Assembly (NCBI RefSeq): GCF_027924665.1
Contig: NZ_AP027043.1
Span: forward strand, 1,798,001 to 1,862,000
Direction: 5' to 3'
Source of the DNA: Flavobacterium sp. GSB-24
Lineage (GTDB): Bacteria; Bacteroidota; Bacteroidia; Flavobacteriales; Flavobacteriaceae
DNA: 64,000 nucleotides
The notes under the pieces were generated by a model. That model made no database searches. It was given only the letters and a program-made list of their open reading frames with translations, and was not told where the DNA came from. Below, one piece after another: positions 2,193 to 11,014 of this stretch (the first letter of the stretch is position 1; each line of letters opens with the position of its first letter). A program made the translations under genes and the position numbers.

Positions 2193-2726
2193 TTAAGCTT
2201 GTTTTACAAATTGTAATTCAATGTTTAAACGAACTTCTTCGCCTACTAAAACACCACCAGTTTCAAGAGCTGAGTTCCAGTTTAAACCCCAATCTTTACG
2301 ATTAATTTTTCCTTCTATGCTTAAACCTACTTTTGTATTTCCCCAAGGATCAGTCAAGATTCCGCTGTATTCTACAGGAAAAGTTACGCTTTTAGAAACA
2401 CCTTTAATGTTTAAATCTCCAGTAATTTCATAGCTTCCTTCATTGATTTTTTTGAAAGATGTTGCCTTGAAAGTTAATTTTGGATGATTTTCAGCATCAA
2501 AGAAATCGCCGCTTCTTAAATGTCCGTCTCTGTCTGCATTTGCAGTATCGACAGAAGCGATATCAGCAGAAAATTCAATTGCTGCATTTTCGAAGTTGTC
2601 TCCTTCTGTAGTAATTGTAGCGTCGTATGTTCCAAATTTTCCTGAAACATTTGTAAACATCATGTGTTTAACTTTAAAACCAATTTCTGAGTGAGTTGGG
2701 TCAATTGACCATTTTGTAGTTGCCAT
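2193..2726 (-). CDS. YceI family lipid-binding-like protein
   Basis: A 177-residue YceI domain protein of the lipocalin-like isoprenoid-binding fold. It opens with ATTKWSIDPTHSEIGFKVKHMMFTN in two pieces: the WSIDPTHSEIGFKVKH start motif and the KHMMFTNVSGKF strand pair. Later come RDGHLRSGDFFDAENHPKLTF and a C-terminal LNIELQF strand. No signal peptide is seen, so it looks cytoplasmic, unlike periplasmic E. coli YceI. I chose the ATG at 2726, not 2768. The -7 element at 2766-2773 overlaps the upstream ATG, so that codon cannot be translated normally. It shares an operator with the pirin gene. Confidence 0.9.
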   Translation of the reverse strand: MATTKWSIDPTHSEIGFKVKHMMFTNVSGKFGTYDATITTEGDNFENAAIEFSADIASVDTANADRDGHLRSGDFFDAENHPKLTFKATSFKKINEGSYEITGDLNIKGVSKSVTFPVEYSGILTDPWGNTKVGLSIEGKINRKDWGLNWNSALETGGVLVGEEVRLNIELQFVKQA

Positions 2727-2765: not shown

Positions 2766-2811
2766 CAAAGTTACGGTGAGAGTATTCTTTGAGCACTTAA
2801 CCTAGATTAAG
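2766..2811 (-). promoter_or_regulatory. yceI promoter with palindromic operator
   Basis: On the minus strand a -7 element TAACTTTG (2766-2773) is preceded, after exactly 22 bp, by the near-perfect palindrome CTTAATCTAGGTTAAG (2796-2811). The same motif stands at the same distance in front of the pirin gene. It adjoins where a -33 box would lie, which fits an activator or a promoter-blocking repressor. Confidence 0.75.
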
Positions 2812-2839
2812 AAATAAAAAATGAGGTAATTTCTTTTAC

Positions 2840-2855
2840 GAAAATCTAGGTTGAG
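2840..2855 (-). promoter_or_regulatory. Possible degenerate second operator upstream of yceI
   Basis: The stretch ATCTAGGTTGAG (from 2844, + strand) matches most of the yceI palindrome, about 44 bp further upstream. Only one half-site is well kept, so it could be an auxiliary site or chance. Confidence 0.35.
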
Positions 2856-2861
2856 ATAAGT

Positions 2862-2890
2862 TTTTCTCGCAGATAAAATCTGCAAAATCT
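2862..2890. repeat. CGCAGAT-type intergenic repeat
   Basis: Imperfect inverted repeat of TCTCGCAGAT and ATCTGCGGGAGA. Related GCAGATTTTGCAGAT strings occur near 8600 and 12305, so this is a dispersed repeat and not a gene-specific site. Confidence 0.5.
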
Positions 2891-2932
2891 GCGGGAGACT
2901 TTTTTCTTTATTTATTGAAATTACAAAAAAAA

Positions 2933-2972
2933 GAAACGATAACAATCTGATTTATAGATTTATTATCGTTTC
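2933..2972 (-). terminator. Terminator of the pirin gene
   Basis: Stem GAAACGATAA with TTATCGTTTC, followed on the minus strand by a run of eight T. It lies directly after the pirin stop codon. Confidence 0.75.
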
Positions 2973-3004
2973 CAAGTACAGGTATTAATTGTTTTTTGTT
3001 TGAA

Positions 3005-3721
3005 TTAATAGTTCATCGGAATATCCATCAATAAAAATTCAGCATCTGTATTGGCTTGAATTTTTAAAATGTCAGTTCCTGAAATTCCAACTGCATCACG
3101 AGTGTTTAATTCCTGACCGTTGATGGTAACGTTTCCTTTTAAAACAAAAGCATAAACGCCATTTCCTTCTTTTTTGATTGTGTATTCAGTAGATACACCT
3201 GAGTCAAAATTACCCATATTGAACCAAGCGTCTTGGTGAATCCAAACTCCGTCATCATCTGCATTTGGAGATAAAATCTGAGAAAGTTTATTATGTCTGT
3301 CCGCAACATCCAAAGTAATTTGTTGGTAACGCGGAGCAACGTTTCTTTTATTTGGAAACAACCAGATTTGCAACAATTTAGTCTGTTGATCTGCGTTCGG
3401 ATTAAACTCGCTGTGCTGTACCCCAGTTCCGGCACTCATTACCTGAATATCACCATTTTTGATGATTTCAGTATTTCCCATACTGTCTTTGTGCGCCAAA
3501 TCGCCCTCTAATGGAATCGTAATGATTTCCATATTATCGTGAGGATGCGTTCCAAAACCCATTCCGCCCGCAATTGTATCATCGTTCAAAACACGAAGTG
3601 CCCCAAACTGAATTCTATCTGGATTGTACCAGCTTGCAAAACTAAAACTATGATAAGCATTAAGCCATCCGTGATTTGCGTTTCCTCTTGTTTCTGCTTT
3701 ATGTAATACTATATTTTCCAT
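3005..3721 (-). CDS. Pirin family protein (bicupin)
   Basis: A 238-residue YhhW-type pirin. The N-terminal cupin carries the metal-ligand signature GFGTHPHDNMEIITIPLEG (about residues 56-74), then LAHKDSMGN and the GTGVQHSE turn around residue 100. The C-terminal cupin is degenerate, as usual in pirins. Members are iron-binding cytoplasmic proteins; some, such as E. coli YhhW, have quercetin dioxygenase activity in vitro, and others act as redox-linked cofactors. The substrate here is unknown. The gene sits upstream of yceI on the same strand but with its own terminator and promoter. The shared operator suggests co-regulation. Confidence 0.92.
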   Translation of the reverse strand: MENIVLHKAETRGNANHGWLNAYHSFSFASWYNPDRIQFGALRVLNDDTIAGGMGFGTHPHDNMEIITIPLEGDLAHKDSMGNTEIIKNGDIQVMSAGTGVQHSEFNPNADQQTKLLQIWLFPNKRNVAPRYQQITLDVADRHNKLSQILSPNADDDGVWIHQDAWFNMGNFDSGVSTEYTIKKEGNGVYAFVLKGNVTINGQELNTRDAVGISGTDILKIQANTDAEFLLMDIPMNY

Positions 3722-3750
3722 GACCTATGTGTTTTGTTGTTTTTATAGTA

Positions 3751-3796
3751 CAAAGATACCGCCAAGGCCAAGGAAAAGCACTTAATCTAGATTAAG
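3751..3796 (-). promoter_or_regulatory. Pirin promoter with perfect palindromic operator
   Basis: -7 element TATCTTTG (3751-3758), then 22 bp, then the perfect 16-bp palindrome CTTAATCTAGATTAAG (3781-3796). Spacing and the flanking TGC match the yceI promoter. Confidence 0.78.
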
Positions 3797-4047: not shown

Positions 4048-4782
4048 TTAGTTTGATTCAAGAGTAGCAACAATACTACTAAAGTTTTTCTTTTTAGCAA
4101 TAGAGAGTGCTGTTTCTCCTTTTTTTGCTATTGTGTCTTTGTCTGCGCCATTTGCCAGCAGGTATTTTACAATTTCTTCATGGCCATAATAAGCGGCACA
4201 CATAAGTTCAGTGAAACCATCTTTTGCAGCAATATTCATTTCTGCTCCTGCTAAAACAAGAATTTGAACATATTCCATAATTCCAGTTATAATAGCTGAC
4301 ATTAATACTGTAACTCCTTTGTGGTTTTTATTATTTACATTAGCTCCAAACTTCAAAAGAGTTTTTATTGCTTCGATTTGTCCTTCACGTGTAACCGCCC
4401 AATGTAAAGTGGTCATTTTATATTTATCTTGTATGTCTGGATTTGCTCCGCGCTCCAGAAGTGTTTCTAGTACTTGTATGTTTGATTTTGCACTAAAAAG
4501 TGCAGTGTCTTTGTATCCACGTTCACTTTTGAAATTAATGTCGATATTTGTGTCAAGAATTATATTTAGTATTTCCAAATTATTCTGTACTACAGCATAA
4601 CTTAATACACGGTCACCTACCATATCGGTAATTGAAATGTCAGCACCTGCCTTAAGTAATTCTTTAACTATTTTTATATCGTTATCCTTGACTGCCCACA
4701 TTAGTGGAGTTCTTCCGTAACTGTCTTGCGCATTTAAACCTTTTTCTAATGACTTTAATAATTCAGAAGTAGTAAAATCCAT
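4048..4782 (-). CDS. Ankyrin repeat protein
   Basis: A 244-residue protein made almost wholly of about six to seven ankyrin repeats. Recognisable units include GRTPLMWAVKDNDIKIVKEL, KYKMTTLHWAVTREGQIEAI and DGFTELMCAAYYGHEEIVKY, each followed by a GAD/GAN turn. There is no signal peptide or membrane segment, so it should be cytoplasmic. Such proteins mediate protein-protein contacts; the partner cannot be told. The gene stands alone between the arms of a 32-bp inverted repeat, which may mark a cassette or simply repeat insertion at both ends. Confidence 0.9.
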   Translation of the reverse strand: MDFTTSELLKSLEKGLNAQDSYGRTPLMWAVKDNDIKIVKELLKAGADISITDMVGDRVLSYAVVQNNLEILNIILDTNIDINFKSERGYKDTALFSAKSNIQVLETLLERGANPDIQDKYKMTTLHWAVTREGQIEAIKTLLKFGANVNNKNHKGVTVLMSAIITGIMEYVQILVLAGAEMNIAAKDGFTELMCAAYYGHEEIVKYLLANGADKDTIAKKGETALSIAKKKNFSSIVATLESN

Positions 4783-4865
4783 TTTTCTGTAGCTTTATTC
4801 TTTCTTTTTTTGGTAAAACTACGAAAAATATTAAAAAAGAATTAGAGATTATGCATGTTGAATTT

Positions 4866-4897
4866 CTTGTGTGATCTCTCCTTTGTCGAGATGACAA
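4866..4897 (-). repeat. Right arm of 32-bp inverted repeat around the ankyrin gene
   Basis: Reverse complement of 3907-3938 with one mismatch. The sequence continues ATGACAAGATTGTGAGAA, shared exactly with the tail of the palindrome at 12379-12418. A further CTTTGCGACTTCGCGTCTTT-type repeat follows at about 4948-4968. Confidence 0.8.
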
Positions 4898-4992
4898 GAT
4901 TGTGAGAAGATATGTTTAGTTAATTATATTCAAAGTGAAATAAAACTTTGCGACTTCGCGTCTTTGCGAGATTTTAAAAAAAAAAACTCCTA

Positions 4993-5352
4993 TTACTTGA
5001 TTTTAATCAATTTCCCTTTCCCAACCACCTCATCAAGATAATTAGCAGCAGAACTTTTCTTATCATGCATGAAAAATTCAATAGTATCTTTTTTGATTTG
5101 ATCTTTTGGGATACTTATAATTAAATCAGTATTGATGAAATTGTCTAATAATATTGTATTGCCATAAGAAATTTTCCCCTTTGGCATAAACTTGTTATCA
5201 AAGACAAAAACACTATCCTTAAAAGTAATTTTATCTTTTTGGATATAGACATTGTTGTTTTCAATTAAATAATTATAACGTCCGGTAAGTTTGTCTGTCT
5301 CCTGATTGAAGCTAATAAGAAACAGCGTTATTGTTAAAGCAAAATATTTCAT
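4993..5352 (-). CDS. Small exported protein of unknown function
   Basis: A 119-residue protein I do not recognise. Residues 1-15 (MKYFALTITLFLISF) look like a signal peptide, and no lipobox Cys is present. The rest is short beta-rich segments such as GRYNYLIENNNVYIQKDKI and a Lys-rich C-terminus ending GKGKLIKIK. It lies 6 bp downstream of the regulator gene at 5359-6840 on the same strand and probably shares its transcript. Nothing in the sequence connects it to the glyoxylate shunt. Confidence 0.7.
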   Translation of the reverse strand: MKYFALTITLFLISFNQETDKLTGRYNYLIENNNVYIQKDKITFKDSVFVFDNKFMPKGKISYGNTILLDNFINTDLIISIPKDQIKKDTIEFFMHDKKSSAANYLDEVVGKGKLIKIK

Positions 5353-5358
5353 AACGTT

Positions 5359-6840
5359 CTAACTATATTGATTAATAAACTGCTGTACAACAAAATCTGT
5401 GTTGTCATGGCGTTTTTTCATTTCCAGGGCAATTGGCGGTGCAGCTCTTTCCAAACAGTTTTTTACATCGCAGGTTTCACACGTAACACCAACGATTCGT
5501 TTAATAAGAGGTTTTCCTTCAATGAATTTAAATTTCTTTTTCATCGTCGGATTAATTAAAATTCCAACTGAAATGCTTCTAATATTATTCTCTACAAAAG
5601 GGTCTTTTGTTGCCGATGAAAAGACTAAATATTCATTCCCGCTATGTACATAACTCGAGATTTGAGCATCAAAAAAATGCGGTTTATTTTGTCTGATCGC
5701 TTCATTTATAGTTTTTACCGAAACCCATCTTCTGCAATAATGCTCGTTGGTTTCGTTAGCGTGCGGTTCTTGCTGATTCGTAATGTGAAGTTCCTTTTTT
5801 ATCTGATAAACATCTGAACCAATAGGATGCGACATTCTTAAAAAGAATAAATTTTTCAACTGAAAATCTTTCGGTAATAAATTCGTCAATCGCTGATAAA
5901 AAGATTCAGGAGAAACTTCGAAACTTTCAATTAAAGAAACAAATTCTTCTGGATTCGGTTTTTCATTATTTAGGAAATTATTGATTTTGTCCACAACCAA
6001 TTTTCTCGGCAATAACAAAGCGCCCGCAAAATAAGAAGCGTAAAAATTGTTCAAAACCTGATCGAAATTTTCAAATTTAATCCAGCTGAATGTCAGTAAT
6101 CGATCTGAAATTTTTAAATAATTATAAGCAATTTCTTTAGCTAAAATAAAAGCTTTCTGCGGAGCGTCAAGTTCTGTTGAAAGTAGTAAAGTTCTGCTTT
6201 TCGGAACATAAATCGAGCGCAAATCGCCCAAAGCTTCCTGATCGGTAAAAGCAATTTCTTTTATAGTGTATTCGTATTCTTCTTTTAAAATCGCTTCTAA
6301 TTCTTCAATAGTAATTTTTGAATCGAGATTGATCTGAAACGACTTAGAAAACGCAATTACTCTCTCTTCTAAATCTTCAAAATAATTACTATGCGCTTCC
6401 TGATACGATCGTAAAGCGGCTAAAAAGAAACTTTCACGGCTTAAATTATAATGCTGTGCAATTTCTATAATGGTACTAATAAACGCATTGACTTTGGCTG
6501 GAGCATTAGCAATAATATCTATTAAATCCGCTTCCTGAATTCCGAAAAGATCTAGCGGAATCTCTTTTAAAATTCCAGATTTTAGAATTTCGCCAATAGG
6601 GGCTAGGTTGTTATCGAGTTTTAAAGATACCATTTGGTCATAAGTCACGTCCAAATGTTTACATAAAAGCAAGATTTTATCTGCTTTTGGATATTTTTTT
6701 CCCTTTTCAATTTCGTTTAAATACGATTTTGAAAGATTCGTCAATTTGGCCAAGCCAAAAAGAGAAAGATTTTTTTGAGTTCTGACTTGCTTGAGTTTAA
6801 GCCCAAATATCAGCTTTATATAGTCTTTTTCGATATCCAT
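5359..6840 (-). CDS. RamB/ScfR-like XRE-family regulator with degenerate ImmA/IrrE domain
   Basis: A 493-residue predicted regulator of acetate or fatty-acid use. The N-terminus is a Cro/XRE helix-turn-helix (LKLKQVRTQKNLSLFGLAKL, then NLSKSYLNEIEKG). The middle aligns with the ImmA/IrrE-like domain, but the expected HExxH reads KEIAYNY, so protease activity looks lost. The C-terminus has CETCDVKNCLERAAPP, like the Cys-rich end of RamB/ScfR proteins. Corynebacterium RamB represses aceA and aceB, and here aceB is divergent. I chose the ATG at 6840 because a full promoter (6846-6877) ends 5 bp before it, which excludes the longer frame from 6936. Confidence 0.85.
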   Translation of the reverse strand: MDIEKDYIKLIFGLKLKQVRTQKNLSLFGLAKLTNLSKSYLNEIEKGKKYPKADKILLLCKHLDVTYDQMVSLKLDNNLAPIGEILKSGILKEIPLDLFGIQEADLIDIIANAPAKVNAFISTIIEIAQHYNLSRESFFLAALRSYQEAHSNYFEDLEERVIAFSKSFQINLDSKITIEELEAILKEEYEYTIKEIAFTDQEALGDLRSIYVPKSRTLLLSTELDAPQKAFILAKEIAYNYLKISDRLLTFSWIKFENFDQVLNNFYASYFAGALLLPRKLVVDKINNFLNNEKPNPEEFVSLIESFEVSPESFYQRLTNLLPKDFQLKNLFFLRMSHPIGSDVYQIKKELHITNQQEPHANETNEHYCRRWVSVKTINEAIRQNKPHFFDAQISSYVHSGNEYLVFSSATKDPFVENNIRSISVGILINPTMKKKFKFIEGKPLIKRIVGVTCETCDVKNCLERAAPPIALEMKKRHDNTDFVVQQFINQYS

Positions 6841-6845
6841 AATAT

Positions 6846-6877
6846 CAAATGTAACTGATTTACAAATAATCGCCAAA
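6846..6877 (-). promoter_or_regulatory. Promoter of the RamB-like regulator
   Basis: On the minus strand TTTG (-33, 6874-6877) and TACATTTG (-7, 6846-6853) are 20 bp apart, which fits the Bacteroidetes consensus. The -7 element ends only 5 bp before the ATG at 6840, so the message is probably leaderless. Confidence 0.65.
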
Positions 6878-6894
6878 AAAATATTTTTAAATTT

Positions 6895-6910
6895 TAGCGA
6901 ACGTTCGCTA
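6895..6910. promoter_or_regulatory. Perfect palindrome between regulator and aceB
   Basis: TAGCGAACGTTCGCTA is a perfect 16-bp inverted repeat in the divergent intergenic region. It lies upstream of the regulator's -33 box and about where an aceB -33 box would fall (candidate aceB -7 TAACATTG, 6931-6938). This is the expected place for the regulator's binding site. Confidence 0.7.
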
Positions 6911-6958
6911 TTTTTATAAAAAACTTTTTGTAACATTGTAGTATAAAATCTATTAGCT

Positions 6959-8560
6959 ATGAAAAACCAATTAGAAATTACCGAAAAGGCGATGGAGTTT
7001 TTAGCCGAAAAGAAGCTTCGTTATCCAAAGATCTGGACAGAAGAAGCGATTGCTTTTATAACTGAACTGCATAGAAAATTCGAATCACAGCGAAAACTAT
7101 TGCTTTTGCAGCGCGAGCAAAAACAAGTCACTTTTGATCAGGGAATTATGCCGGTTTTTATTCCTGAAACGAAAAGTATCAGAGAAGGCAATTGGACAGC
7201 AGGCGAAATTCCGAAAGATTTATTAGACCGAAGAGTAGAAATTACGGGACCCGTTGATCGCAAAATGATTATCAACGCTTTGAATTCGGGAGCAAAAACT
7301 TTTATGGCCGATTTTGAAGACAGCACTTCGCCAACCTGGCAAAATTTGATGGAAGGCCAGCTGAATTTAATCGATGCCGTAAATAAAACAATTACCCATA
7401 CCGATTTGGTGAAACAGAAGTCCTATCATTTAAATGAAAAAACGGCAACACTAATTGTGCGTCCAAGAGGTTTACATCTGCCGGAAAAACATCTTTTAAT
7501 TGAAGGAAAAGAAGTTTCGGGTTCGTTGGTAGATTTTGGTTTGTATGTTTTTCATAATCATAAACGACTTTTAGAAAACAATTCGGGACCATATTTCTAC
7601 ATTCCGAAATTAGAACATTATCTAGAAGCACGCTGGTGGAACAATGTAATTGATTTTACCGAGGATTATTTGAAGCTGAAAAGAGGAACTATAAAAGTGA
7701 CGGTTTTAATTGAAACGATTACAGCAAGTTTTCAGCTCGATGAAATTATTTACGAATTGAAAGAACATATTGTGGGCTTAAATTGTGGGCGCTGGGATTA
7801 TATTTTTTCATACATCAAAAAGTTTAGAAAAAATCCAAAATTCATCGTTCCAGACCGCGATCAGGTAAATATGACTTCGCCTTTTATGAATGCATATTCG
7901 AATCTGGTTATTCAAAGATGTCATAAAAGAGGCATACATGCCATTGGCGGAATGGCAGCGCAGATTCCGATTCGAAATAATGAAGAAGCTAATGCCATCG
8001 CTTTCGCGAAAGTGAAAACCGATAAAGAACGCGAAGTTCGAAACGGCCACGACGGAACTTGGGTAGCGCATCCGGATTTGGTTTCGCTTGCAAAAGAAAT
8101 CTTTGATAAAGGAATGCCAACTCCAAACCAGATTCATATTAAAAGAGAACATCGAAAAATTACAGAAGCAGATTTGATTGAACCACCAATCGGAATAATC
8201 ACTGAAAACGGCGTTCGAAAAAATATCAACGTAGGAGTTTTGTATCTGGCTTCATGGCTGAACGGTCAAGGCGCGGCAGCTTTGCATAATTTGATGGAAG
8301 ATGCCGCAACCGCAGAAATTTCGAGATCGCAATTATGGCAATGGCTTCAGAATAAAGTGGTTTTAGATAATGGACGAAAATTAGATTTGGCTTATTATCA
8401 TGAATTGGCTTTGGATGAATTCAGAAAAATCAAAGAGGAATTAGGAGAAGAAAATCACGAAAAACAACAATTTCCATTGGCTGAAAAAGTACTGGAAAGA
8501 TTAGTTGTAAATGCTGATTTCGTTGATTTCTTGACTATTCCATGCTACAAATATTTATAA
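6959..8560 (+). CDS. aceB: Malate synthase A
   Basis: It condenses glyoxylate with acetyl-CoA to malate, the second step of the glyoxylate shunt. The length of 533 residues fits the A-type enzyme. Recognisable pieces are ALNSGAKTFMADFEDSTSPT, IVRPRGLHL, VLIETITASFQLDEIIYEL with the catalytic-site Glu, GLNCGRWDYIFSYIKKF and RNGHDGTWVAHPDL. It is divergent from the RamB-like regulator and is followed 115 bp later by aceA on the same strand. Together they let the cell grow on acetate and fatty acids. Confidence 0.97.
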   Translation: MKNQLEITEKAMEFLAEKKLRYPKIWTEEAIAFITELHRKFESQRKLLLLQREQKQVTFDQGIMPVFIPETKSIREGNWTAGEIPKDLLDRRVEITGPVDRKMIINALNSGAKTFMADFEDSTSPTWQNLMEGQLNLIDAVNKTITHTDLVKQKSYHLNEKTATLIVRPRGLHLPEKHLLIEGKEVSGSLVDFGLYVFHNHKRLLENNSGPYFYIPKLEHYLEARWWNNVIDFTEDYLKLKRGTIKVTVLIETITASFQLDEIIYELKEHIVGLNCGRWDYIFSYIKKFRKNPKFIVPDRDQVNMTSPFMNAYSNLVIQRCHKRGIHAIGGMAAQIPIRNNEEANAIAFAKVKTDKEREVRNGHDGTWVAHPDLVSLAKEIFDKGMPTPNQIHIKREHRKITEADLIEPPIGIITENGVRKNINVGVLYLASWLNGQGAAALHNLMEDAATAEISRSQLWQWLQNKVVLDNGRKLDLAYYHELALDEFRKIKEELGEENHEKQQFPLAEKVLERLVVNADFVDFLTIPCYKYL

Positions 8561-8561
8561 A

Positions 8562-8637
8562 GAATTAAAAATTTAGAATTAAAAATTAAAAATGTTTTCA
8601 CGCAGATTTTTAATTTTTAATTCAAAATTTTTAATTG
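8562..8637. repeat. AT-rich nested hairpin between aceB and aceA
   Basis: An 18-bp inverted repeat (8576-8593 with 8606-8623) is nested inside AATTAAAAATTT (8563-8574) and AAATTTTTAATT (8626-8637). The loop carries CACGCAGATTTTT, part of a repeat seen elsewhere. It could attenuate read-through into aceA or stabilise mRNA ends. Confidence 0.55.
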
Positions 8638-8675
8638 AATAAAATGCTTTACTAACCACTTTAACTACACTATTT

Positions 8676-9956
8676 ATGAAAACAACAGAAGACAGAATTC
8701 AGGAATTGATTAACGATTGGATTACGAACCCGAGATGGAAAGGTGTTGAACGTCCTTATACTGCTGCCGAAGTAGTTACGCTTCAAGGTTCTTATCAAAT
8801 TGAGCATTCTATTGCTAAAATGGGAGCGCAAAAATTATGGAGAAAGTTAAAAAGTCAGGATTATGTTGCGGGGTTGGGCGCGTTAACTGGAAATCAGGCG
8901 ATTCAGGAAGTCGATGCGGGTTTAGAAGCGATTTATTTGAGCGGCTGGCAGGTTGCAGCAGATGCAAATCTGGCGGGAGAAATGTACCCAGACCAGTCGC
9001 TTTATCCCGTAAACAGCGTTCCTATGGTGGTAAAAAAAATCAATAACGCTTTATTACGCGCCGACCAAATTCAGACGGTAAATGAAGTTGAAGATAAAAA
9101 AGACTATTTGGTTCCGATTGTGGCTGATGCCGAAGCGGGTTTTGGCGGAAACTTAAATGCTTTCGAATTAATGAAATCTATGATTGAAGCTGGAGCTTCT
9201 GGAGTGCATTTTGAAGATCAGCTTAGTTCTGCTAAAAAGTGCGGACACTTGGGCGGAAAAGTTTTGGTGCCAACTCAGGAAGCGATTAATAAATTAATTG
9301 CAGCACGTTTGGCTTCGGATGTTATGGGCGTTTCAACTTTAATTGTAGCAAGAACCGATGCTGATGCGGCAAATTTATTAACAAGCGATGCAGACCCAAG
9401 AGACAGGAAATTTTTAACAGGTGAAAAAACTGCCGAAGGTTTCTTCTACGTTAAAAACGGAATTGATCAGGGAATTGCAAGAGGTTTGAGCTACGCGCCT
9501 TACGCTGATTTAATTTGGATGGAAACCAGCAATCCGGATTTGGATTATGCGAGAAAGTTTGCGACGGCTATGAAAAAAGAATTTCCAGATAAAATGCTGG
9601 CTTACAATTGTTCTCCTTCTTTCAACTGGGCTGCAAAATTATCAGTTGCGGAAATGGAAACGTTCAGGGAAGATTTGGCTGCAATGGGTTATAAATTCCA
9701 ATTTATTACTTTGGCAGGATTCCATGCTTTGAACACTAGTATGTTTGAATTGTCTAAAGCGTATAAAGAACGCGGCATGGCAGGATATTCTGAATTGCAG
9801 GAACGCGAATTCGCTTTACAGAAAAACGGATTCAGAGCGGTAAAACATCAGGCTTTTGTTGGAACTTCTTATTTTGATGCGGTTCAAAATACCGTAATGA
9901 TAGGAAAATCAACAATAACAGCGATGAAACATTCTACAGAGGTTGAGCAATTTTAA
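8676..9956 (+). CDS. aceA: Isocitrate lyase
   Basis: It cleaves isocitrate to glyoxylate and succinate, the first step of the glyoxylate shunt. At 426 residues it is the short bacterial form. The catalytic signature KKCGHLGGK (about residues 189-197) follows [13 protein letters not shown] and HFEDQLSSA. The [10 protein letters not shown] and YNCSPSFNW motifs are intact. It lies directly downstream of aceB and ends in its own hairpin terminator, so the two are likely co-expressed under the RamB-like regulator. Confidence 0.97.
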
Positions 9957-10118: not shown

Positions 10119-10694
10119 TTATTTCTTCAAAAGTCTCGCTTTCATTTTGCTGAAAAATTCAGGCGTTACTCCAATAAAAGACGCAATTTGTTTTTGGGGA
10201 ACTTTGTGAATTAAGGTCCCGTATTTTTTACTGAATTTTTCGAAACGCTCTTCCGCAGGTAAACTTAAATTATCCATTAATCTTTGCTGATTGGCAACTA
10301 ATGAATTTTCAATTAGAATTCTGAAAAAGCGTTCCAGTTTTGGAATTTCAAGATACAATTGTTCCTGATTTTCTTTGGATAATGAAACCACTTCTGCTTC
10401 TTCCAAAACTTCAATAAAAAGCTGACCTGGTTTTTGCGAAAAATAACTGTACATATCGCTCATCCACCAGCCTTCGCAGGCAAATGAAAGTACATGCTCC
10501 ACAATATTATCGTTGATATTGAAACTTCGTAAAATTCCCGAATTAACGAAATAAGAGTGTTTGCAAACTTCGCCGGCATTCAATAAAATTGTTTTAGGTT
10601 TATAAGTATTCGTTTCTAGCTTAGATAAAAAAAGTGCCTGCTCTTCTGGTGTCAAAGAAACATGTTTAGCAATATTTTCGAGTATTAATGCCAT
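10119..10694 (-). CDS. Crp/Fnr-family transcriptional regulator
   Basis: A 191-residue one-component regulator. Residues ~20-120 form a cyclic-nucleotide-binding-type barrel (KTILLNAGEVCKHSYFVNSG, then VLSFACEGWWMSDMYSYFS). The C-terminal winged helix includes KQIASFIGVTPEFFSKMKAR. It lacks the Fnr iron-sulfur Cys cluster. Its start overlaps the preceding stop codon (TAATG), so it is translationally coupled to the small secreted protein and probably co-transcribed from purT. Confidence 0.9.
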   Translation of the reverse strand: MALILENIAKHVSLTPEEQALFLSKLETNTYKPKTILLNAGEVCKHSYFVNSGILRSFNINDNIVEHVLSFACEGWWMSDMYSYFSQKPGQLFIEVLEEAEVVSLSKENQEQLYLEIPKLERFFRILIENSLVANQQRLMDNLSLPAEERFEKFSKKYGTLIHKVPQKQIASFIGVTPEFFSKMKARLLKK

Positions 10695-11014
10695 TATTTT
10701 TTATCATCTATTAAGGTGAATGAAGTCGCTTTAAATCTATCGTTTACAATTTCTCCTGTAACAGAAGCTTTTCTAACGGCATTGCAAAAACCTTTTTCAG
10801 AGTGTGCGTCACCGTGATCATGAATAGTTGTTCCGTCAACAAAATAGGATTTGCCGTCAATTCGAACGGCCAAATCACAGCTTTTACCTTTCATTCCAAA
10901 TTGGCATTCTCCGCACGAAGCTTCAACTATTGTTGGTTTGTCAAATTTCTTTTTGGTTTGCGCTTGTGCTGTAATCCCGATAAACAGGAAAAGCGTGAAT
11001 ATAATTTTTTTCAT
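10694..11014 (-). CDS. Small secreted Cys/His-rich protein (DUF6370-like)
   Basis: A 106-residue exported protein. MKKIIFTLFLFIGITAQAQ is a clear signal peptide. The mature part holds SCGECQFGMKGKSC and then HDHGDAH and GFC, a Cys/His arrangement that suggests metal binding or a disulfide-linked fold. I place it near DUF6370 from memory of that family's layout; this needs a profile search. It sits 3 bp after purT and overlaps the Crp-like regulator's start by one base, so the three form one operon. Confidence 0.7.
   Translation of the reverse strand: MKKIIFTLFLFIGITAQAQTKKKFDKPTIVEASCGECQFGMKGKSCDLAVRIDGKSYFVDGTTIHDHGDAHSEKGFCNAVRKASVTGEIVNDRFKATSFTLIDDKK

Follow-up and report, generated by a model that had tools for sequence, protein, structure and literature searches.

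In Flavobacterium sp. GSB-24, a yceI gene and a pirin gene, both transcribed leftward, are each preceded by a 16-bp palindrome. The question raised by this locus is whether one protein binds both sequences, which protein this would be, and what it would do to transcription. The stretch of DNA analysed, 64,000 nucleotides in length, is referred to here as the window, and positions are counted from its first letter. According to the original prediction, a perfect palindrome at 3781-3796 and a partner at 2796-2811 each lie 22 bp upstream of a TAnnTTTG box and are directly followed by TGC, and both statements agree with what can be read from the sequence. The parts of the locus are as follows.

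2193..2726, minus strand: yceI gene (Pfam YceI), with the ATG of MATTKW as start
2766..2773, minus strand: yceI -7 box TAACTTTG, predicted transcription start at about 2761
2796..2811, no strand assigned: operator-like 16-bp palindrome of yceI, CTTAATCTAGGTTAAG in the minus-strand reading, predicted to cover -50 to -35
2840..2855, no strand assigned: third half-site of the original prediction, 4/16 mismatches, excluded from the parts of the system
3005..3721, minus strand: pirin gene with a quercetinase-type C-terminal cupin (Pfam Pirin and Pirin_C_2)
3751..3758, minus strand: pirin -7 box TATCTTTG, predicted transcription start at about 3746
3781..3796, no strand assigned: operator-like 16-bp palindrome of pirin, CTTAATCTAGATTAAG, predicted to cover -50 to -35

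The ATG of MATTKW was used as the start of yceI in place of the TTG at 2768 given in the program-made list of open reading frames. Regarding the third half-site, it is present in the sequence as claimed, differing from the site at 2796 in four of 16 positions, but it is not conserved: when a further site was sought in the 58 bp preceding the main one, a match at 11 or more of 14 positions was found in 2/77 yceI promoters and 0/78 pirin promoters. Because of these mismatches and this lack of conservation it was rejected as a working element and left out of the system.

Conservation within Flavobacterium

Whether the palindrome is absent from orthologous promoters, or placed at random relative to them, was examined in 80 named Flavobacterium loci, which were fetched with the regulator protein described below as the best-scoring 80 of 384 and are therefore close relatives (regulator 92-99% identical). 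In these loci, the palindrome lies upstream of every pirin gene (79/79) and every yceI gene (77/77) found, and its spacing is fixed, the gap to the box being 22 bp in 155 of 156 promoters and 21 bp in the remaining one. Promoter rows were then anchored on the site-plus-box pattern, leaving out one of the 79 pirin rows (gap of 21) and no yceI row. The operator carries 1.84 bits per position in pirin (78 rows) and 1.99 in yceI (77 rows), values to be read knowing that 17 of the 24 letters in operator and box are set by construction through this anchoring. The spacer between operator and box carries 1.24 and 1.08 bits per position, respectively, and the 60 bp upstream of the operator 0.33 and 0.50.

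The check that accompanied the original prediction, a scan of this and other Flavobacterium genomes for the site near TAnnTTTG, returned nine sites in the GSB-24 genome and extended the pattern across the genus. Thus, site and box at the fixed spacing, with at most one mismatch, were found in 131/199 genus genomes, against 9/199 for a reversed-pattern control (the 9 counted by eye). When the gap was left free between 12 and 40 bp, 136/199 genomes matched, against 31/199 for the control (31 likewise counted by eye), and among the 150 free-gap matches listed the gap was 22 in 135, 21 in eight and another value in seven. Judged from these sequence comparisons, yceI and pirin are preceded by palindromes of a single site type, whose distance to the -7 box is fixed at 22 bp within Flavobacterium.

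Sites across the GSB-24 Genome

The nine sites of the organism's own genome (5.35 Mb, 2 contigs), each a palindrome with a box at the fixed spacing, comprise six exact copies, two with one mismatch and one with two. All eight palindromes with no or one mismatch have the box exactly 22 bases on, one as TAnnTTTA and the rest as TAnnTTTG, and the signal is confined to this class. Looser searches do not discriminate: the palindrome alone with at most two mismatches gave 14 + 14 matches in the genome against 10 + 17 for the control, site and box with at most three mismatches 6 + 11 against 6 + 12, and the palindrome with at most three mismatches in the 64-kb window four matches against 2.26 expected. 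As the looser searches of the genome do not exceed the reversed control, only sites with 0-2 mismatches and fixed spacing were used. The idea of a small regulon of two genes under one dimeric regulator is sustained as to the dimer-type site and the single regulon, but the gene set is larger, with nine sites in the genome.

The further targets include a second pirin gene followed by an OsmC gene and a GNAT gene; a thiolase gene; a gene for a glyoxalase-superfamily protein that weakly matches ring-cleaving dioxygenases; a run encoding a small GNAT protein, a carboxylesterase with weak similarity to MhqD, and a 116-residue protein without Pfam match; and two alpha/beta hydrolases. In a last target region, three tandem deviating copies (gaps of 22, 21 and 21) precede a small open frame and a gene with an isochorismatase domain.

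Two of these regions have peculiarities of their own. The tandem near-copies (locus L070, G000:C1:4275918-4276169) lie 117 and 119 bp apart, each consisting of CTTGTYCTAGATTAAG with TAnnTTTG at 22, 21 and 21 bp, and a similar triple is found in the relative G481; such a series of three like promoters is unusual. At an alpha/beta hydrolase site (L068), the palindrome occurs a second time, as ATTAATCTGGATTAAG at G000:C1:3493331-3493346, 38 bp upstream of the main one.

A Candidate Regulator of the Crp/Fnr Family

It had been stated that no regulator gene is adjacent to the two promoters. This is true for GSB-24, but the window holds a good candidate about 6.4 kb upstream of pirin, which adjoins pirin or yceI in many relatives.

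10119..10694, minus strand: Crp/Fnr-family protein, predicted regulator on the grounds of its cNMP-binding domain, FNR-like alignment, adjacency in relatives and co-occurrence with the site
10694..11014, minus strand: DUF6370 gene, directly upstream of the regulator gene with a one-base overlap

The DUF6370 gene also adjoins the regulator gene in five other loci (L039, L041, L042, L058 and L063). Among 3-kb loci bearing a site in other members of the genus, an orthologue of the regulator is found next to pirin or yceI in 14/30. At the level of whole genomes, the regulator is present in 136/199 (E <= 1e-50), and its distribution follows that of the site (<=1 mismatch): 126 genomes have both, ten the protein only, five the site only and 58 neither (Fisher 1.6e-33, a p-value that ignores relatedness and genome size). 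In the free-gap search, 6/10 of the protein-only genomes have a match. In the region between the Crp/Fnr gene and pirin (4048-9956 of the window) are genes for malate synthase, isocitrate lyase and an XRE/ScfR-type regulator, and one ankyrin gene. The two genes are less than 2 kb apart in 6/79 named loci, and therefore insertion or loss has happened.

The N-terminal part of the protein matches the cNMP-binding-type beta-roll PF00027 with 32.2 bits (cut-off 27.5), and 15/15 aligned members match it at E <= 0.1. The HTH_Crp_2 domain scores 16.5 bits, under its cut-off of 27, and is matched by 13/15 members at the same threshold. The regulator profile aligns with an FNR-type regulator at positions 13-187, recognition helix included. 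Nevertheless, the protein is neither CRP proper (28.2 bits against a cut-off of 266 for the NCBIfam CRP equivalog) nor FNR proper (23.6 against 228). It has two cysteines (44 and 73), and thus the iron-sulphur cluster of FNR, which needs four essential cysteines as described in part of the text of PMC4505428, cannot form. The same part of that source gives Glu-Ser-Arg as the DNA-contact triad of FNR; the residues aligned with it here are Glu-Ser-Lys, invariant in 15/15 aligned proteins. Autoregulation of the Crp gene was considered and discarded, since the 300 bp in front of the gene in eight relatives gave best matches with 4-6 mismatches of 14.

Promoter Geometry and Proposed Mechanism

In F. 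psychrophilum, TAnnTTTG occupies -12 to -5, according to part of the text of PMC9723704. If the boxes are placed accordingly, the 16-mer covers -50 to -35, with a predicted centre at -42.5. The site centre of class II FNR promoters is -41.5, as given in part of PMC4505428, and the operator centre predicted here, derived from the box position of F. psychrophilum, is near that value. Moreover, 154/155 pirin and yceI promoters lack a TTTG in the interval from -36 to -29. The site centre at about -42.5 together with the missing -33 element suggests class II activation, and the earlier suggestion that the position of the palindrome is that of an activator is thereby supported.

With a probability of roughly three in four (about 0.76), the sites would be bound by a dimer of the Crp/Fnr protein encoded at 10119-10694, a predicted class II activator of pirin and yceI. 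It is proposed that this dimer binds TTAAT-N4-ATTAA before both genes, the operator occupying the place of the -33 element; as the site replaces this element, RNA polymerase would need the bound protein, which would contact the polymerase from the class II position and so switch on pirin and yceI.

Paralogues in the Genus

The GSB-24 genome has 22 cNMP-domain matches, and three short paralogues of the regulator share its Ser-Lys in the helix. It is thus conceivable that some or all of the sites are governed by another Crp/Fnr paralogue (L084 or L088, for instance, both Ser-Lys proteins) or by more than one acting together. In one of the five site-only genomes (G429, locus L047), a different Crp protein, with L084 as best match (40%), indeed adjoins pirin and yceI, beside a deviating site. 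However, homologues of L084 and L087 occur in 35/121 and 21/121 genus genomes, respectively (E <= 1e-60), which is fewer than the sites, and both families adjoin different palindromes; judged from these two families, control by a paralogue is unlikely and the protein at 10119-10694 is preferred.

A scan beside the 22 cNMP genes that required a gap of 22 and TAnnTTTG found nothing, and the palindromes of the paralogues appeared once this requirement was dropped. L087, a Ser-Arg paralogue, is followed by CTTGATCTAGATCAAG; within this sequence is the exact FF site of E. coli FNR, and downstream of it comes a gene for a short-chain dehydrogenase. In its family (L087 and L205-L228), CTTGATCTANATCAAG and close variants are present in 19/24 loci, with the end of TTTG at 51 in 18. 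The family of L084 (L084 and L229-L258) mostly has CTTGAAGTASTTCAAG about 10 bp downstream, in 29/30 loci, and TTTG ends 29 nt later in 29/29 loci having a palindrome, counted with CTTGA-N6-TCAAG; as a T-run follows, this palindrome is possibly a terminator. Other palindromes, TTTGCCAAATGGCAAA and GTTGACATATGTCAAC, follow the Crp/Fnr genes L092 and L094 of the same genome. A plain helix code, in which Lys would mean A, is contradicted by the L084 family and is kept as a hypothesis only, because these Ser-Lys proteins adjoin TTGAA-type palindromes.

Homologues in Other Genera

Outside the genus, the Flavobacterium-type site with box was found in 0/297 genomes at 0 mismatches, as the spacing in those genera is 44 and their box reads nAnnTTTG. 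The regulator itself has matches at E <= 1e-45 in 15/197 other genomes of the family (39-45% identity), and in 10/15 of the corresponding loci the core TTAAWCTAGWTTAA begins 2-9 nt past its stop codon, flanked by G and C in nine and by A and T in one. The palindrome copies are imperfect in 7/10, and the core is kept nonetheless. In all ten core-bearing loci, the distance from the palindrome to the end of TTTG in an nAnnTTTG box is exactly 52 nt, compared with 30 nt in Flavobacterium, which corresponds to gaps of 44 and 22 bp. In five of these ten loci the next gene codes for a YceI-domain protein, and in two it is the second next gene that does so. Where the core is lacking (five loci), the recognition helices are different. 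Given the core and its exact register at 10/15 loci, all three (protein family, core and register) extend to other genera, at a spacing increased by two helical turns. The classical class I position is -61.5, and the 44-bp spacing would amount to a class I placement, centred at about -64.5.

These loci also bear on the possibility that the Crp/Fnr protein binds and represses by blocking the -33 region. Crp/Fnr proteins can repress, and the site does overlap the place of the -33 element. However, the exact spacing and the lack of TTTG at -36 to -29 are needed by a class II activator and by no repressor, and the sites of other genera, with equally exact spacing, stand 22 bp farther upstream of the box, where blocking is improbable. 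Repression is thus judged a little less likely still than control by a paralogue, and activation remains the favoured outcome of binding by the Crp/Fnr protein.

A broader scenario, doubtful at present, would treat the expanded set of short Crp/Fnr paralogues in Flavobacteriaceae as individual switches. Each would have an FNR-like palindrome of its own, set 21-22 or 43-44 bp from the box, two fixed spacings that differ by two helical turns. One paralogue, on exchanging Arg for Lys in the helix, might have changed its site from TTGAT to TTAAT, taken over an electrophile-defence regulon centred on pirin and YceI throughout the genus, and, in Flavobacterium, moved this site from class I to class II.

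Other Proteins Considered

An AraC-family protein is encoded in the window at 1249-2109, 83 bp past the end of yceI, and could be thought to control yceI and pirin via the palindrome. Activation from the -35 region or its vicinity is common among AraC proteins, some relatives (L056 and L059) have a homologue together with yceI, and the occurrence of AraC is likewise associated with that of the site (odds ratio 8.6; 70/8/61/60 among the 199 genomes, in the same order of counts as above). Association by itself therefore does not tell against AraC, and genome size may be a partial driver of the associations of both AraC and the Crp/Fnr protein with the site. Against this, AraC homologues (>=50% identity) are missing in 61/131 site-bearing genomes, whereas the Crp/Fnr protein is missing in 5/131, and AraC proteins usually bind direct repeats, a preference that counts against binding to a palindrome. 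The view that this protein is a poor match for a symmetric site, already expressed in the original prediction, is hence upheld, and its control of the two genes is very improbable.

A MarR-GNAT fusion (MarR and GNAT domains; L067:3872-4804) is divergent from the site at 3383.7 kb, which it adjoins. MarR proteins bind palindromes, and quinone regulons are among their known targets, with MhqR of S. aureus as a precedent in what is presented of it in PMC6798810. The targets in that regulon include a ring-cleavage dioxygenase and an MhqD-type carboxylesterase, and the weakly similar proteins found here overlap with them in type; but MhqR, according to the same portion of that source, belongs to the MarR-type repressors and has its operator at -6 to +12, in contrast to the Crp/Fnr protein and predicted activator site of Flavobacterium. 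The fusion occurs in 12/199 genus genomes (E <= 1e-60), against 131/199 with sites, a distribution that comes near to refuting it as the regulator and leaves it scarcely credible. On this count, and with the carboxylesterase scoring 24.6 bits against the cut-off of 325 for the MhqD equivalog, membership in an MhqR-type quinone regulon was rejected as well.

The palindromes can fold, and several copies in other genera and beside paralogues stand behind a regulator gene and before T-runs, but that they are RNA hairpins (terminators) and no protein sites is just as hard to credit, given that the pirin and yceI sites lie upstream of a promoter box and are followed by TGC and no T-run, and that in other genera imperfect palindromes keep the core in 7/10 copies and the distance to the box is exact in 10/10.

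Comparison with Known Systems and Possible Signal

With E. coli CRP, the Crp/Fnr protein favoured here shares a cNMP-type domain, a putative helix-turn-helix and predicted class I and class II placements; it differs in an equivalog score far under the cut-off and in the half-site, which is TGTGA in CRP. Its profile aligns over nearly the full length (positions 4-188 of 191, E = 1.1e-54) with PDB 3dn7, a 'cyclic nucleotide binding regulatory protein'. A close parallel in site architecture is provided by the class II promoters of E. coli FNR (FF-41.5), as far as these are described in part of PMC4505428, with a 5-4-5 inverted repeat (TTGATCTAGATCAA for FNR and TTAATCTAGATTAA here), a site position near -41.5 and an aligned recognition helix. 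The differences are one base per half-site (G to A), Lys in place of the Arg of the contact triad, different targets, and a Bacteroidota promoter.

Regarding the signal, electrophile or quinone stress is a guess from gene content, held with slightly less than even confidence. It is drawn from the two pirins, YceI, the protein resembling glyoxalases and ring-cleaving dioxygenases, the MhqD-like esterase, the OsmC protein, the two alpha/beta hydrolases and the thiolase. The redox- or stress-linked role suggested earlier fits this target list, and a stress- or detoxification-like gene set is predicted to be switched on by a Crp/Fnr-type protein.

Concluding Remarks

In the open-licence PMC literature (listings and abstract starts), no paper on a Crp/Fnr regulon of pirin and yceI was found, which does not prove that none exists, and the main text of PMC9723704 has no words starting with Crp, Fnr, pirin, YceI or palindrom. 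The regulon predicted here would thus be new, with a regulator of a known kind (Crp/Fnr).

For the biology of these bacteria, one of the many flavobacterial Crp/Fnr-like proteins gains a predicted assignment of regulator, site and targets, and pirin and YceI, which are common but poorly understood proteins, are tied into one predicted control circuit. Palindromes at fixed spacing beside regulator genes offer a route to the assignment of sites for other paralogues, and the same palindromes a route to studying how Bacteroidota promoters with a TAnnTTTG box are activated.
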